This document shows, in pieces, positions 42,056 through 56,643 of a DNA stretch of 64,000 nucleotides. The position numbers were made by a program, and so were the translations under genes. Origin of the DNA: Cryomorphaceae bacterium (GTDB lineage Bacteria; Bacteroidota; Bacteroidia; Flavobacteriales_D; Crocinitomicaceae). The DNA is taken from positions 1 through 64,000 of the forward strand of contig JAIXUE010000026.1 in NCBI GenBank assembly GCA_027483605.1, read 5' to 3'. Each line of letters opens with the position of its first letter. Position 1 is the first letter of the stretch. The notes beneath the pieces are model-generated. The model was not told the origin of the DNA and searched no databases. It saw only the letters and a program-made list of their open reading frames with translations.

Positions 42056-43815
42056 GCTTCTTGGTTGAAATACTGCCGATCAGACAAATTCTTATAATGA
42101 CCACCGAGTTCGAGTAGTTCTTCATGTGTGCCCTGTTCTATAATGCGGCCTTTTTCCATGACGATTATGCGGTCGGCCTTTCTGATTGTGGATAAACGGT
42201 GGGCAATTACAATGGACGTTCTGCCAGCTGTTAATTTATCGGTGGCGCGCTGAATCATCAGTTCGCTCTCGCTATCCACACTAGAAGTGGCTTCGTCTAG
42301 AATAAGCAAAGAGGGCTGATACACGTAGGCGCGAATAAAAGCCAACAACTGTCTTTGCCCGGTAGAGAGGGTGCCTCCTCTTTCGCCAATTTTATGCGCA
42401 TATTGATCAGGAAGCACGCTAATGAAGTCGTGCGCACCAACCTCTTTAGCTGCGTCTATCACTTGCGCGAGGGTAATTGAGGGGTCTCCAAGGGTAATAT
42501 TATTAAAAACAGTATCGGAAAACAAGAATACATCTTGAAGTACAATAGCAATATTCTTGCGCAAAGTTGGTAGCTCAATAGCCTCTATGGGTACCTTCCC
42601 GATTAAAATTTGACCCGATTGATGCTCGTAAAATCGACCAAGTAGATTGACGAGAGTTGTTTTTCCAGAACCCGTGGCACCAACAATTGCTACAGTTTGA
42701 CCATAGTCGATGTCTAGATTGAGGTCGCTAATGACAGGCTGTCCTTCTACATAAGCAAAATTGACGCCCTGAAAACGCAAATGTTGATTGAAATCAACAT
42801 CCGTTAAGTGCCCTTTGTCTTGAACATCTGTTTGTTCGTCCAGAACGGCAAAAATGCGCTCCGCTCTGACAGTTCCGCGTTGTAAAACATTGAATTTATC
42901 GGCCAACATGCGTATTGGGCGATACAGCTGACTGATCCAAAAAACAAATGCAAACAATTCGCCAAACATATTACCTACTTCTTGTTCAGACTTACCTGCA
43001 GCCTGCAGCGCTCCCCACACCAATAAGGAAGCAATAGACAAGGAACTCAATAATTCAACAAACGGAAAGAAAATCGAGTTAGCCCAAACGGCCTTGATAT
43101 GTGCTGCTCTGTGCTCGGCGTTAATTTGCTCAAAATGCTGAGCCTCTTGCTGTTGGCGGTTAAAGAGCTGCACCAAACTCATACCAGTGAGTCTTTCCTG
43201 AACAAAAGTATTGAGCTTGGTTACGGCTTGCCGCTCTTGCTGAAAAGAGGATTTCATGGCGCGGGCAAAAATGCGCGTTGCCCAAATGAGTAAGGGAACT
43301 GGAATTAAGGTCATGAGTGCCAACTGCCAATCGGTCATGAACATGAACAAGACAATGAGTATCAAGGACAACAAATCTGCGGCGATGTCCATTACGCCCG
43401 AAGAAAAAACTTCTGTAATGGCTTCCATGTCTGAAACTACTCTAGTCACCATTGCGCCTACGGGGTTTTTATCGAAATATGATACCCTAAGCTTCATGAA
43501 GTGACGGATCACTTTTTGACGCAAATCACGAATGACAGACTGAGCAAGTAAATTAGAAAAATAAGTCCCTACAACTTGTAATACCGCCTCTAGCAAAAGC
43601 ATAATCAGCACCAATAAAGAGCCCAACAACAACATGTTTGGGTCTTTGTCCTTGAGTAAATAACGGTCAATTATTTGACCGATTACATAGGGCCTCGAAG
43701 GAGAAAGGGCGGCAAGTAAAATCGTGGCGCTAATGGCTACAACTAAGTATTTTTTATAAGGCTTGGCAAAGCTGAAAAGGCGTTTGAACAAGGAATATTG
43801 TAGCTTTTGACTCAT
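42052..43815 (-). CDS. ABC exporter, fused permease-ATPase (MsbA/MdlB-like)
   Basis: A 587-residue half-transporter: six hydrophobic segments within residues 20-320 and an ATPase domain from about 345. Walker A GATGSGKTTL, signature LSTGQRQLLAF (Thr in place of the usual second Gly region), Walker B LLILDEATSS and the switch IAHRLS are visible. It likely works as a dimer exporting a lipid, peptide or drug; the substrate is unknown. First gene of a three-gene operon; a perfect -7 element ends seven bases before the ATG. Confidence 0.9.
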   Translation of the reverse strand: MSQKLQYSLFKRLFSFAKPYKKYLVVAISATILLAALSPSRPYVIGQIIDRYLLKDKDPNMLLLGSLLVLIMLLLEAVLQVVGTYFSNLLAQSVIRDLRQKVIRHFMKLRVSYFDKNPVGAMVTRVVSDMEAITEVFSSGVMDIAADLLSLILIVLFMFMTDWQLALMTLIPVPLLIWATRIFARAMKSSFQQERQAVTKLNTFVQERLTGMSLVQLFNRQQQEAQHFEQINAEHRAAHIKAVWANSIFFPFVELLSSLSIASLLVWGALQAAGKSEQEVGNMFGELFAFVFWISQLYRPIRMLADKFNVLQRGTVRAERIFAVLDEQTDVQDKGHLTDVDFNQHLRFQGVNFAYVEGQPVISDLNLDIDYGQTVAIVGATGSGKTTLVNLLGRFYEHQSGQILIGKVPIEAIELPTLRKNIAIVLQDVFLFSDTVFNNITLGDPSITLAQVIDAAKEVGAHDFISVLPDQYAHKIGERGGTLSTGQRQLLAFIRAYVYQPSLLILDEATSSVDSESELMIQRATDKLTAGRTSIVIAHRLSTIRKADRIIVMEKGRIIEQGTHEELLELGGHYKNLSDRQYFNQEA

Positions 43816-43822
43816 TGTATTA

Positions 43823-43830
43823 CAAAATTA
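43823..43830 (-). promoter_or_regulatory. -7 element TAATTTTG of the ABC exporter operon
   Basis: A perfect TAnnTTTG match on the minus strand, seven bases upstream of the ATG at 43815, so a leader of only about three bases. It is divergent from the prs promoter 13 bases away. Confidence 0.6.
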
Positions 43831-43843
43831 GTTCTTAATTCCT

Positions 43844-43851
43844 TACCTTTG
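43844..43851 (+). promoter_or_regulatory. -7 element TACCTTTG of prs-rplY
   Basis: A perfect TAnnTTTG match 18 bases upstream of the GTG at 43870. Upstream in-frame ATGs lie before the expected transcript start, which is why the GTG is preferred as the prs start. Confidence 0.6.
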
Positions 43852-43869
43852 CATCCAATTTTAAGTATC

Positions 43870-44799
43870 GTGGGCGTAAAAATCTTTGCAGGCAGGGCTT
43901 CCGAACAACTCGCAGCCAACATCGCTAAATCATTTGGCGCAACTCTTGGCGACGTCAAAGTAAATGTTTTTTCCGACGGTGAATTCCAACCCTCTTTTGA
44001 AGAAACAGTTAGAGGTCAAGATGTGTTCATTGTGCAATCCACTATGCCTCCTACCGAAAACTTATTCGAACTCTTATTGCTCATAGATGCCGCACGCCGG
44101 GCTTCTGCACGCAAAATCATCGCCGTCATTCCTTACTTTGGCTTTGCTCGTCAAGACCGCAAAGACAAACCTAGAGTAGCTATTGGCGCCAAGCTGGTTG
44201 CAAACATGCTCATGGCTGCGGGTGTAGACCGCATCATGACCATGGACCTCCACGCCGACCAAATCCAAGGCTTTTTCGAAGTACCCGTAGACCACCTGTT
44301 TGCGTCTACGCTCTTCTTCAACGAAATAGACAATCTCAACCGCGACAACCTCGTCGTTGCGGCACCAGATGCCGGTGGTGCTAAACGCGCCAACTCTTAC
44401 GCCAAAAACCTCAATTGTGGTTTGGTGCTTTGTCACAAAAACCGCAAAAAAGCGAACGAAATTGCCGAAATGACTGTCATTGGCGATGTTGCAGGTAAAG
44501 ACGTCGTGATCATCGACGACATGTGTGACACCGCAGGCACACTCACCACTGCAGCAGACCTACTTATCGAAAAAGGCGCAAAAAGCGTTCGTGCCTACAC
44601 GACCCATGCTGTATTGAGTGGGCCTGCATTTGAACGCATCGCCGCGTCTAAACTCACCGAACTCATCGTTACCGACACCATTCCGCTTCAAAAGCACAGT
44701 GACAAAATCCGCGTGGTTAGCGTAGCCGACCTCTTTGCAGATGTCATCAAGCGCTTGGTCAACAACGAATCGATCAGTTCACATTTTGTAATCTCTTAA
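43870..44799 (+). CDS. prs: Ribose-phosphate pyrophosphokinase
   Basis: This enzyme makes PRPP from ribose 5-phosphate and ATP for nucleotide, His and Trp synthesis. From the GTG at 43870 it has 309 residues, the usual length, beginning VGVKIFAGRASEQLA. Signatures: FSDGEFQPSFEETVRG, FARQDRKDKPRVAIGAKL, the metal-binding MDLHADQIQGFF, and the PRPP loop VVIIDDMCDTAGTLT. The GTG start is chosen because the promoter -7 element (43844-43851) lies downstream of the ATG at 43807. rplY follows after 13 bases, a common pairing. Confidence 0.95.
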   Translation: MGVKIFAGRASEQLAANIAKSFGATLGDVKVNVFSDGEFQPSFEETVRGQDVFIVQSTMPPTENLFELLLLIDAARRASARKIIAVIPYFGFARQDRKDKPRVAIGAKLVANMLMAAGVDRIMTMDLHADQIQGFFEVPVDHLFASTLFFNEIDNLNRDNLVVAAPDAGGAKRANSYAKNLNCGLVLCHKNRKKANEIAEMTVIGDVAGKDVVIIDDMCDTAGTLTTAADLLIEKGAKSVRAYTTHAVLSGPAFERIAASKLTELIVTDTIPLQKHSDKIRVVSVADLFADVIKRLVNNESISSHFVIS

Positions 44800-49847: not shown

Positions 49848-52406
49848 CTACAATTCTCCGAGGTTCATCCCGATTGTAAACGTGAGTTTAGGATAATACC
49901 CTTTGGCATTGATGTCTAAGTCCGAGCCCTTTCCATAACCAGTTGCCCACTCATCCATTTGGTCAAAACCTAAACCGTAGTCAAGGCCCAACATACCAAA
50001 CATCGGTAAAAACACGCGAATACCAACACCTGCCGCACGTTTGACATTGAACGGGTTAAATTTATCAAAGCTTGGATAAGTATTGCCCGCTTCTAAGAAG
50101 GTGAGTGCATAAAAGGTAGCTTGAGGGTTGAGTGAAATTGGATAACGCAACTCTAAAGTATATTTTGCAACAATTGGATCACCACCCGCCGAGGAAATGG
50201 TTTGGTCTTCATAACCGCGCAAAGCAATGATCTCACGACCGCCAATTTGATTGGCACCCATTCCGGTGAGGCCGCTGCCACCCATAATGAAGCGATCAAA
50301 AGGAGAAATGCCTTTCGCCTTGTTGTATGCGCCCATATAACCAAATCCAAAGCGCGACATCAAAACGAGTTTTTTGTCTGCGCTCAATGGTGTATACCAC
50401 TCTCCTGTAAACTTCAGCTTGAAATATTCTAAGTATTTGTAGCGGTCTTGCTGCGTCATGCTTGCATAATCCTTTTCTGGACCAAACATGCTGTAAGGCG
50501 CCGTCGCTTTGGCAGAAAAAGTAAAATTCGAGCCATTTTGTGGATAAATTGGTGCGCTTACTGAACTGCGTTGCAAGGTGTATTTCAAAGAAATATCGTT
50601 GGCATAGCCATTTTGGAAGAGCGGGAAAAATGAATAATTCTGAACATCGTAATACTGATAAGAAAGCTCATAATTGGCTACAAAATAATCATCAGGCCAT
50701 TTCTTGCGGCGTCCCATGGCCACACCAGCTCCCGATATAGAAATCCCGTTGTAGTCAGGATTAGTGCGCAACAATCCATTTGTAGAGATTGAAGAGTTGG
50801 TTACATAGAAAGTGAGTGAGTTTGGTTTTTTGCCACCTAACCATGGCTCAGTAAAGGAGAAATTATAACCCTGATAGAATCGCCCAGTAGACTGCGCGCG
50901 AATAGTCAGTCGCTGGCCATCGCCCCCAGGAAGTGGGCTCCAAGCGTCTTTCTTGAAAAAGTTTTTGGTGGAGAAATTATTGAATGACAAACCGAGGGTA
51001 CCAATAATTCGGCCTGAGGTGTTGGGCCCCGCGCCGCCGTATCCTCCGGAAAGTTCGATTTGATCGCTGGACTTCTCTGCAACAACGTATTCGATATCTA
51101 CGGTACCGTTTGCTGGGTTAGGTTTGGGATTCACTTGAAAACCTTGCTCATCAAAAAAGCCCAGTTGTGCCAACTCGCGCTGCGTGCGCATGATGTCCGC
51201 TTTGTTAAAGAGATCACCTGGTTTGGTGCGGATTTCGCGCAATATGACGTGATCGTTTGTTTTGGTGTTTCCGCGGATGGTGACTGTACCGATGTGGGCT
51301 TCTTTGCCTTCTATCAAACGAACTTGGTGGTTAATTTTATTGTCTTTGACCCCTGTTTCAACAGGAGAAATTTGGAAAAACAAGTAGCCGCGGTCCATGT
51401 AGAGCGAAGAGATGTCGCGGCCATCGCCGTTGCCATACAAGCGCTGGTTAAACAAGTCTTTGTTATAGAGGTCGCCGGGTTTGATTCCTAAAACAGTGTC
51501 GAGAAAGCTAGATCTATATTTTGAATTACCAATCCATTCGATGTCACCAAAGTAATATTTCTCTCCCTCATTGATTTCTATGCGGATTTTCATGTTCTTT
51601 TCATCGAGCATGAAAACAGAATCTTTGATAATTGCAGCGTCACGAAGGCCTTCTGCATTGAACTTAGCCATTAAAGCAGCTTTGTCGGTGGCATAGCTGC
51701 TTTCGGTGTATTTAGAGCGCTTGAATAAGCGTTGCGGGCCTTTTTGTTTGGTGTCTTTCATGGCCATTTTGAGCTTCCAAATCGGAACCGACGTGACCCC
51801 CACAAATTCAATTTCTTTGATGCCAACTTTAGTGCCCTTTTCAACATTGATTACAAAAATCTCGGAATTGTTGATCAGGGTATCTAGTTGTCGATTGATT
51901 TGCACTTTGGCGTGATAAAATCCTTTGTCTCGGTAATAACTTCGGATCTTGCTGTTGGTTTCAAACACCAAATTTTCAGTTATCGTTTTGCCTGCATAAA
52001 GCGTGATTTCTTCTCTAAGTTTATCGGCCTCGCGTTTATTGACGCCAACAAATCGAAACTTAGAAAGCTTCGGGCGCGGACTCAATTCTATGACCAAATA
52101 GACAATGCCGCCCACTTCTTTCTCTGCATAAATGGCGACATCAGAAAACAAGCCTTCTGCCCAGAGGTTTTGAATGGCTTTATTAATTTGCTGACTTGGT
52201 AAAGTAATTTTTTGACCCGTGCGCAAACCTGCAATAAGCTTAATGGCTTGGTGGTCGTAGTTGTCAGCGCCCACAACGCGTACAGGGCCAATTTCATAGG
52301 TTTGAGGATTAGCGTAATCAAAGTCAAACCCTCCCAATGTATTTGGTTTTTGGGCCAGCACTAGACCAGCACTAAAAAGCATTAGAAAAAAGAGTATTTT
52401 ATTCAT
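49848..52406 (-). CDS. bamA: Outer membrane protein assembly factor BamA
   Basis: An 852-residue Omp85 protein that inserts beta-barrel proteins into the outer membrane. Signal peptide 1-18 (ends VLAQ). Repeated POTRA domains fill about residues 35-445 (SKFRFVGVNKREADKLREEI, KEIEFVGVTSVPIWKLKMAM, GTVTIRGNTKTNDHVILREI), followed by a 16-stranded surface-antigen barrel from about 450. The conserved barrel loop motif VRGF/IRGY class appears as ALRGYED. It is preceded by uppS with a four-base overlap (ATGA) and followed by the two Skp homologs. Confidence 0.96.
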   Translation of the reverse strand: MNKILFFLMLFSAGLVLAQKPNTLGGFDFDYANPQTYEIGPVRVVGADNYDHQAIKLIAGLRTGQKITLPSQQINKAIQNLWAEGLFSDVAIYAEKEVGGIVYLVIELSPRPKLSKFRFVGVNKREADKLREEITLYAGKTITENLVFETNSKIRSYYRDKGFYHAKVQINRQLDTLINNSEIFVINVEKGTKVGIKEIEFVGVTSVPIWKLKMAMKDTKQKGPQRLFKRSKYTESSYATDKAALMAKFNAEGLRDAAIIKDSVFMLDEKNMKIRIEINEGEKYYFGDIEWIGNSKYRSSFLDTVLGIKPGDLYNKDLFNQRLYGNGDGRDISSLYMDRGYLFFQISPVETGVKDNKINHQVRLIEGKEAHIGTVTIRGNTKTNDHVILREIRTKPGDLFNKADIMRTQRELAQLGFFDEQGFQVNPKPNPANGTVDIEYVVAEKSSDQIELSGGYGGAGPNTSGRIIGTLGLSFNNFSTKNFFKKDAWSPLPGGDGQRLTIRAQSTGRFYQGYNFSFTEPWLGGKKPNSLTFYVTNSSISTNGLLRTNPDYNGISISGAGVAMGRRKKWPDDYFVANYELSYQYYDVQNYSFFPLFQNGYANDISLKYTLQRSSVSAPIYPQNGSNFTFSAKATAPYSMFGPEKDYASMTQQDRYKYLEYFKLKFTGEWYTPLSADKKLVLMSRFGFGYMGAYNKAKGISPFDRFIMGGSGLTGMGANQIGGREIIALRGYEDQTISSAGGDPIVAKYTLELRYPISLNPQATFYALTFLEAGNTYPSFDKFNPFNVKRAAGVGIRVFLPMFGMLGLDYGLGFDQMDEWATGYGKGSDLDINAKGYYPKLTFTIGMNLGEL

Positions 52407-53152
52407 TTGTTGGTTTGAATTTGTTCAGATACCATCCCAAAACGCCGCTCCCTCTTCTGATAAGCAGCAATAGCATCTATAAATGCATCGCGACGGAAGT
52501 CAGGCCAATGGGTGTCTGTAAAAAGCAACTCTGTATAAGACAATTGCCAAAGCAAAAAGTTACTGATGCGGCATTCTCCGCTGGTACGAACGAGTAATTC
52601 TGGGTCGGGAATATCCTTGGTGTCTAGCAATTTCGAGAATTCCGTTTCATTGGTATCTTCTAGTGAAAGTTCGCCAGACTGGAGTTTTTGGTGAGTTGCG
52701 ATGGCTGCATTTAATATTTCCTTGCGCGCAGAATAGTTTAAAGCCAATACGAGCGTTAACGCGGTATTGTCTTTGGTGCGCTCCATTGCATCTAGCAAAG
52801 ACTGATAACAATTGCCAGGCAATCCTTGGATATCGCCGATGGTACGTAAACGCACGCCGTTCGCATGCATTTCGTCCACTTCATTAGCAATTGCATCTAC
52901 CAGTAAGTTCATCAGGCCTTCAACTTCTTCACTTGGACGCGCCCAATTTTCAGTAGAAAATGCGTACATCGTTAAATACGCTACACCAAGTTCGCGTGCA
53001 GTTTTGATCACTTCCTTCACAGATTCTACTCCGGCGGCATGCCCAAATAGGCGATGCTGCCCTTTGTTTTTAGCCCAACGGCCATTGCCGTCCATGATGA
53101 AAGCAACGTGGCGTGGAATTTTCTGAAGGTCAAGGTTTTCTAAAGTACTCAT
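52403..53152 (-). CDS. uppS: Isoprenyl (undecaprenyl diphosphate) synthase
   Basis: A 249-residue cis-prenyltransferase making the C55 carrier lipid for peptidoglycan and surface glycans from FPP and IPP. Signatures: HVAFIMDGNGRWAKNKG with the catalytic Asp near residue 20, GHAAGVESVKEV, AFSTENWARP, and the C-terminal LLVRTSGECRISNFLLWQLSY. It heads the uppS-bamA-ompH-ompH operon. TATTTTCG (53162-53169, one mismatch to the -7 consensus) ends nine bases before the ATG. Confidence 0.96.
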   Translation of the reverse strand: MSTLENLDLQKIPRHVAFIMDGNGRWAKNKGQHRLFGHAAGVESVKEVIKTARELGVAYLTMYAFSTENWARPSEEVEGLMNLLVDAIANEVDEMHANGVRLRTIGDIQGLPGNCYQSLLDAMERTKDNTALTLVLALNYSARKEILNAAIATHQKLQSGELSLEDTNETEFSKLLDTKDIPDPELLVRTSGECRISNFLLWQLSYTELLFTDTHWPDFRRDAFIDAIAAYQKRERRFGMVSEQIQTNK

Positions 53153-55104: not shown

Positions 55105-56304
55105 TTACGAAGTCCTGCGCAATAAAAATCTGACAGGGAAATAGGTAAACAAAAAAGCTAATGCGCTGGAAGCGAAGAGTATGCTCGTGAAGTCTTTTAC
55201 TTTGAAAACGATCGGAAACGGCACGTTAGCTCCTGGCACAATCAACCAACCAAAATATTGCTGACACCAACAGATGAGCAGGCCAAAAAGCAAGCCAAAT
55301 GATATGCCAAGGAAGGAAAGCAACAAGCCTTCGAAAAAGAATATTTGAAAACGATTTTGTGAAGTCATTCCAAGCGCTTTTAAAATTTGCAAATTGGCTT
55401 GTTTCTCGTGGATCAGCATGGTCAGTGTGGCAATCAAATTAAAGGACGCCAGAACAAAAACAAATAACAAGATCACAAACACCACTAGGCGTTCAGAACG
55501 ACTCGTTTTGTAAATCAATTCGTTCTTTTCCAATTGGGTCTTCACTAAAAAGTCCGGACCAACTAATTGCTTGATGCGCTTTTGAATCTCCAGTAAATCC
55601 ATCTTCGGATCAGTGTAAATATGGATTCTAGTTACCGCACCTTCTTGATCAAAAAGCTGACTAGCTGCCGTATAATCCCAGAGCAACGCAGTGCTGTTGA
55701 GTTCTTGGTTGTAATTGAGTGCGCCCGCAACTTCGATAGTTTGGATATGAAATGGCGTTTTACCCAACTTCATTTTCATGTTGCGTTTGGGCGCATACAA
55801 CTGAATATTGTTTTGCTCAGAGCCTAGGCCTAATTTGAGTTTTGAAAAAACATCGGCACCCAAAAATACAAATCCTGGATTGTTCAAGTAAGCCACACCT
55901 ACCTGATTGATCAGGTGTTTTTTGACCTGTGCTTGCTCTACAAATTCGGCGTCAACGGCGTGCATGTTGGCGTTGATCCACCTTTGATTTTTACGCAGCA
56001 CCACCAATTCTTCTAGCTCTTTACTGAACGCCTGAACGCCATTTATTGCTTTTAACTCTTGAAGGTCTATTTGACGTAAAAAAAAGGTTTTTCTACTTTG
56101 GTGCTGAATGGTGATTGGTGCATCAAATGAAGTGTAGAGCTTCGCAATCATTTGTTCGATGCCATTAAAAGCCGACAATAAAATGACCATGGCCGCTGTA
56201 CAAACAGCAATACCAACAACAGAAATTCTAGAAATAATGCTGACTATCGATCGTTTCGAACGACTAAATAGGTAACGTTTTGCTATGTAAAGCGCGGTTT
56301 TAAT
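55105..56304 (-). CDS. LolC/LolE-like ABC transporter permease with probable ATT start
   Basis: An inner-membrane permease of the LolC/E-FtsX/MacB class, which extracts lipoproteins for outer membrane transport. The only ATG (56190) would cut off the conserved N-terminus. Reading upstream in frame gives KTALYIAKRYLFS and then ISRISVVGIAVCTAAMVILL, the family start, back to the rbfA stop codon. The only candidates in this stretch are ATT at 56304 (399 residues, normal length) and ATA at 56289. Four membrane segments are seen: one near 20-42 and three near 270-300, 315-345 and 365-390. The frame is the same as rbfA, so low-level readthrough of its TAA is another possibility. Confidence 0.82.
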   Translation of the reverse strand: MKTALYIAKRYLFSRSKRSIVSIISRISVVGIAVCTAAMVILLSAFNGIEQMIAKLYTSFDAPITIQHQSRKTFFLRQIDLQELKAINGVQAFSKELEELVVLRKNQRWINANMHAVDAEFVEQAQVKKHLINQVGVAYLNNPGFVFLGADVFSKLKLGLGSEQNNIQLYAPKRNMKMKLGKTPFHIQTIEVAGALNYNQELNSTALLWDYTAASQLFDQEGAVTRIHIYTDPKMDLLEIQKRIKQLVGPDFLVKTQLEKNELIYKTSRSERLVVFVILLFVFVLASFNLIATLTMLIHEKQANLQILKALGMTSQNRFQIFFFEGLLLSFLGISFGLLFGLLICWCQQYFGWLIVPGANVPFPIVFKVKDFTSILFASSALAFLFTYFPVRFLLRRTS

Positions 56305-56307
56305 CGC

Positions 56308-56643
56308 TTAGTTCTTGAGAAGTGCGTCGATCTTGAGAGCGTAATCAAGGGAGTCGTCTATGTGGAAAACCAAATCTGGGATTTTACGGAGGTTTTTGAG
56401 TCGTTTGCCTACCTCTAAGCGAATTTTACCTCGGTTGGCTTGAATGTTTTCCAAAACGACTTCTTTTTCAGGGCCCGCAAAAATACTGAGGTAAATTCTT
56501 GCCAAACTTAAATCTGAAGTAATGCGCACAACTGTAACCGAAACCATTGCTCCCAAACAAATTTCTGCAGCTTGTTTTCGAAAAAATGCGGCTAGCTCAG
56601 CCTGAATAACGGCTTCTATTTTTTGCTGACGGATAGAACTCAT
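56308..56643 (-). CDS. rbfA: 30S ribosome-binding factor A
   Basis: A 111-residue KH-like protein needed for 16S rRNA 5' end maturation. MSSIRQQKIEAVIQAELAAF and the middle VVRITSDLSLARIYLSIF match the family, as does PDLVFHIDDSLDYALKIDALL at the end. The start at 56643 is preferred over a start 30 bases upstream because a perfect -7 element (56648-56655) ends four bases before it. The permease gene follows three bases after the stop, in the same frame. Confidence 0.95.
   Translation of the reverse strand: MSSIRQQKIEAVIQAELAAFFRKQAAEICLGAMVSVTVVRITSDLSLARIYLSIFAGPEKEVVLENIQANRGKIRLEVGKRLKNLRKIPDLVFHIDDSLDYALKIDALLKN

Follow-up and report, generated by a model that had tools for sequence, protein, structure and literature searches.

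An apparent AUU, AUC, or AUA start codon behind rbfA in the LolC/E/F-type permease gene of most Crocinitomicaceae

The window, a stretch of 64,000 nt, carries on the minus strand the gene rbfA for the 30S ribosome-binding factor A (56308..56643; ATG at 56643-56641, TAA at 56310-56308), followed on the same strand by a gene for a LolC/E/F-type ABC permease (55105..56304; stop codon at 55107-55105). The rbfA product matched its profiles (Pfam RBFA, 1e-27; TIGR00082 above the cut-off), and its ATG was aligned in four relatives. On the minus strand, the junction reads AAC TAA GCG ATT AAA ACC GCG CTT TAC ATA GCA AAA CGT TAC. Both genes share one frame, with GCG as the sole codon between TAA and the ATT at 56302..56304, the putative non-canonical AUU start located 3 nt past the rbfA stop, from which the permease has 399 residues. 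Back to the rbfA TAA, ATG, GTG, and TTG were absent upstream of the conserved permease N-terminus, and the first in-frame ATG is codon 39 (56188..56190, minus strand; ATT as codon 1). The sequence-only reading of this DNA, which had described a permease gene lacking a usual start codon in frame behind the rbfA TAA, was thus borne out with exact coordinates.

The permease product contained Pfam domains FtsX and MacB_PCD above the gathering threshold, together spanning its full length. It matched TIGR02212 lolCE with E=1e-48 and 166 of 362 bits, which is below the cut-off of the model, and is therefore named LolC/E/F-type and not a confirmed orthologue. The best PDB matches were the lipoprotein-releasing permeases LolF, LolE, and LolC; the structure match covered the full length with the N-terminus in register, although the window permease stays under the TIGR02212 cut-off. 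E. coli LolC and LolE, and LolF as well, begin within about 2 residues of the ATT and align from about residue 3. A second, longer LolCE-like permease paralogue with an apparent GTG or TTG start was observed in the same genus (loci L220 and L223-L225).

Loci for comparison were drawn from the genus, the family, the other families of the order (20 loci), and other orders and classes. The family was delimited as Crocinitomicaceae by record titles, and 24 genera were searched, giving 119 distinct loci for the family. In 75 of them, the start column was AUH (AUU, AUC, or AUA), without ATG, GTG, or TTG back to the in-frame stop, comprising ATT in 44, ATC in 27, and ATA in 4. Another 14 loci had GTG one codon ahead of AUH, and in 30 a canonical start codon occupied the column or lay close to it, so AUH is not indispensable. 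The 75 loci carry ATT, ATC, or ATA at exactly the position at which the window has its ATT, and the codon persisted among them at protein identities as low as about 38%, which is beyond chance. These loci include the closed chromosome CP034120.1 (L050) and the cultured isolate NZ_VLPL01 (L053, Fluviicola chungangensis), showing that the start-codon oddity is real. The record of L050 is titled Glaciecola amylolytica; its permease groups with Fluviicola loci, and the title looks wrong.

The homologous column in the 20 loci from other families of the order held TTG (10), GTG (6), or ATG (3), and one further TTG was located one codon earlier. In these families the canonical start precedes the invariant Ile of [YF]-I-A-x-R-Y by five codons, except in the locus with the one-codon shift. 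Among the 75 AUH loci, amino-acid entropy was 3.3 bits at codon -1 and dropped to values of 0-1.75 bits from codon 1 onward while codon entropy stayed higher, and this drop with codons still varying indicates that translation begins at the AUH column. AUA occupied the start column in 4 of 75 loci, compared to 800 of 4,075 Ile codons of the gene (20%), and was therefore rarer there (binomial 4e-4, the loci not being independent), so the column does not behave as an ordinary elongated Ile codon. Comparison of the sequences thus places the permease start at the AUU at 56304. The AUU start proposed in the sequence-only reading gains support from the homologous column, from the AUU, AUC, and AUA codons across the family, and from the canonical TTG, GTG, and ATG at the same place in other families.

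A second conserved feature, the C-ATA-GCR motif (CATAGCA at 56281..56287, minus strand), covers codons 6-8 of the permease gene and is under synonymous constraint far above codon usage. Codon 7 was ATA in 105 of 115 loci with 22 expected from usage (z 19.8, the highest of 94 columns). Of 119 loci, 94 had C as the third base of codon 6 (44 expected), and 108 had A or G as the third base of codon 8 (60 expected). The constraint was confined to these three codons, and the element was held far beyond protein needs across the order (about 140 related loci). Ser268 (AGT/AGC), the site with the next strongest synonymous constraint, was explained by serine having two separate blocks of codons. Outside the order, codon-7 ATA accompanied non-AUG starts (25 of 35 loci, versus 9 of 30; Fisher 0.001, counted by eye and uncorrected for kinship). 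CATAGCR as a general motif was rejected, with 11 matches in the window versus 12.9 expected. A backup stop for rbfA, formed by the +1-frame TAG within ATA-G, was rejected too; ATA is kept in every rbfA frame, and the flanking C and R would be left unexplained. The element could be a second AUA start, reflect avoidance of internal AUU and AUC starts, or act as a binding site.

Gene specificity was assessed on 47 genes of the 64-kb window aligned with up to four relatives. The permease gene was the sole exception among them, the other 46 having a canonical start, and a genome-wide loosening of start codons was rejected on this count. GTG was used by three window genes, named by sequence only, lipoprotein-like (36150), prs-like (43804), and murI-like (47879); the GTG of the prs-like gene (43804-44799, plus strand) was kept in all four relatives compared. 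The uppS-like gene (52403-53152) has ATG at its start column, as do three relatives, and its homologue in contig 7 of G015 (L216-L219) shows ACG there; a TTG three codons downstream may serve as the start of that homologue.

Permease genes from the remaining orders of the class used TTG or GTG as the start in about 39 of 52 clear calls. ATG prevailed in other classes (about 23 of 26, with TTG or GTG in about 3 of 26); all these counts were made by eye. Because TTG and GTG permease starts extend across the class, AUH in the family appears as the extreme case of a weak start shared class-wide. The permease tree was built quickly and contains several long branches; in it, AUH covered most of the family, with canonical starts in the early branches and in all other families and a return to ATG, GTG, or TTG on some inner branches. 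Within the AUH rows, the tree required about 15 exchanges among AUU, AUC, and AUA. Selection against AUG judged by tree counts was not significant (about 2 changes to AUA versus about 1 to AUG). In the literature that was searched, no known AUH start was found for this permease gene or in this phylum.

The rbfA stop was located within -5 to +9 nt of AUH in 63 of the 69 loci with a measured gap, and 12-98 nt away in the remaining six, where re-initiation would be poorer. Upstream of AUH, a purine occupied position -3 in 80%, and G was rare from -18 to -5, which speaks against a Shine-Dalgarno site; a strong one compensating for the weak codon was looked for in this region and not found. Such sites are lacking phylum-wide in genes of Bacteroidota (PMC6847099), and the AUU is thus most likely served by ribosomes ending rbfA translation. 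Conserved RNA structure at the start was sought as well, with no Rfam match and flat predicted pairing across the start region.

The infC gene started with ATA-GCn in sister families and a few genera of Crocinitomicaceae, and with ATG-AGA in most of Crocinitomicaceae (loci L141-L170, L226, L227, and L240-L268). Among the genomes in which both genes were read, none of the 17 with infC AUA or AUC had an AUH permease, versus 18 of the 27 with infC ATG, the infC starts being read by eye and the lineages nested. This coincidence fits a lineage change in the handling of AUH codons.

An error in sequencing or assembly could be suspected given that most loci come from metagenome bins, and initiation at ATG 56190 given that a gene finder would pick that ATG first. 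Both are exceedingly improbable; an error is refuted by the 75 loci, the closed chromosome and the isolate among them, and the 38 residues that initiation at 56190 would remove are conserved, align with E. coli LolC/LolE and with LolF, and include the invariant Ile7 and Tyr11. Just as improbable is readthrough of the rbfA TAA giving an RbfA-permease fusion, suggested by the window genes being in one frame one codon apart. Of the 69 loci with a measured gap, 33 had both genes in one frame, and 20 and 16 had rbfA in each of the other two frames, so that rbfA is out of frame in 36, and the distance from its stop ranged from -5 to +98 nt with the AUH column unmoved; the spacer codon before AUH showed no conservation either. 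As a general mechanism the fusion is thereby refuted. Translation from the conserved codon-7 AUA (M-A-K-R-Y...), alone or beside the upstream codon in an infC-like manner, would account for the strongest synonymous constraint of the gene and for that on the neighboring bases, and infC itself starts with ATA GCn in other families. It nevertheless seems very unlikely, since codons 2-6 are conserved as protein, a start-like codon is fixed exactly six codons upstream, and LolC, LolE, and LolF reach the upstream start; AUA at codon 7 is unlikely as the sole start and may at most be a second one.

With initiation placed at the AUH column, AUH is probably a deliberately weak, regulated start, as suggested by its conservation. 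We consider it likely that the conserved weak codon is fed by re-initiation coupled to rbfA, is sensitive to IF3, and keeps permease output low, and that AUH arose in most of the family from a gene already using weak UUG or GUG starts. The initiator tRNA would read the AUU at 56304 as fMet, and the start would most likely be supplied with ribosomes or 30S subunits by termination at rbfA a few nucleotides upstream. IF3 would destabilize the non-canonical initiation, giving a low permease yield dependent on the IF3 level, by analogy with E. coli, where IF3 lowers both re-initiation without a Shine-Dalgarno site and initiation at non-canonical codons (PMC2268962). The expected result would be a low permease level tracking rbfA translation and IF3. 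It is also conceivable, though unlikely, that AUH is real but simply tolerated, rbfA coupling supplying enough ribosomes and the codon drifting with no regulatory role. The free exchange of the third base among T, C, and A and the ATG branches inside the AUH clade point that way, as does infC being itself AUG in this clade, so that stringency may differ. Against mere tolerance stand the 46 canonical genes of the window, TTG and GTG held in this gene across the class, and AUH kept over deep divergence with AUG one step away. Also unlikely is a translational switch spanning the class, in which the weak start (UUG or GUG, and AUH in the family) would act together with the internal C-AUA-GCR, which would serve either as a further AUA start of the infC kind or as a decoy or binding site; IF3 and ribosome assembly (rbfA) would then set lipoprotein export without a Shine-Dalgarno site.

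An AUH start shared by most members of a family, in a phylum that lacks Shine-Dalgarno sites and a few bases downstream of a ribosome-assembly gene, makes the unaided choice of a non-AUG codon by the ribosome testable, together with a possible tie between lipoprotein export and translation capacity. Gene callers restricted to ATG, GTG, and TTG would mis-start or truncate the permease in most of the family.

To our knowledge, few bacterial genes with AUU, AUC, or AUA starts have been characterized, and most of those compared here rely on a strong Shine-Dalgarno sequence; for pcnB, we know of neither rbfA coupling nor a family-wide interchange of AUU, AUC, and AUA. The AUU or AUA start of infC, which serves IF3 autoregulation in E. 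coli and S. aureus, resembles the permease start in its AUH codon and its conservation, and sensing by IF3 would be expected in both. The product in the window is, however, a membrane permease, its start lacks a Shine-Dalgarno site and lies directly behind a stop codon, and infC in this clade has AUG. The AUU start of pcnB in E. coli is similar in that it is thought to limit the yield of a housekeeping protein, as cited in PMC13009471. In S. aureus, the broadly conserved AUA of ccpN and AUU of cvfC1 reduce the yield to about 10% of that from AUG, in a context of extended Shine-Dalgarno pairing that is absent at the permease (PMC13009471). The GTC start of sigR in Streptomyces, repressed by IF3, is likewise non-canonical genus-wide with third-base exchange between GTC and GTT, but sigR has an extended Shine-Dalgarno sequence and tunes the sigma/anti-sigma ratio (PMC5472188).
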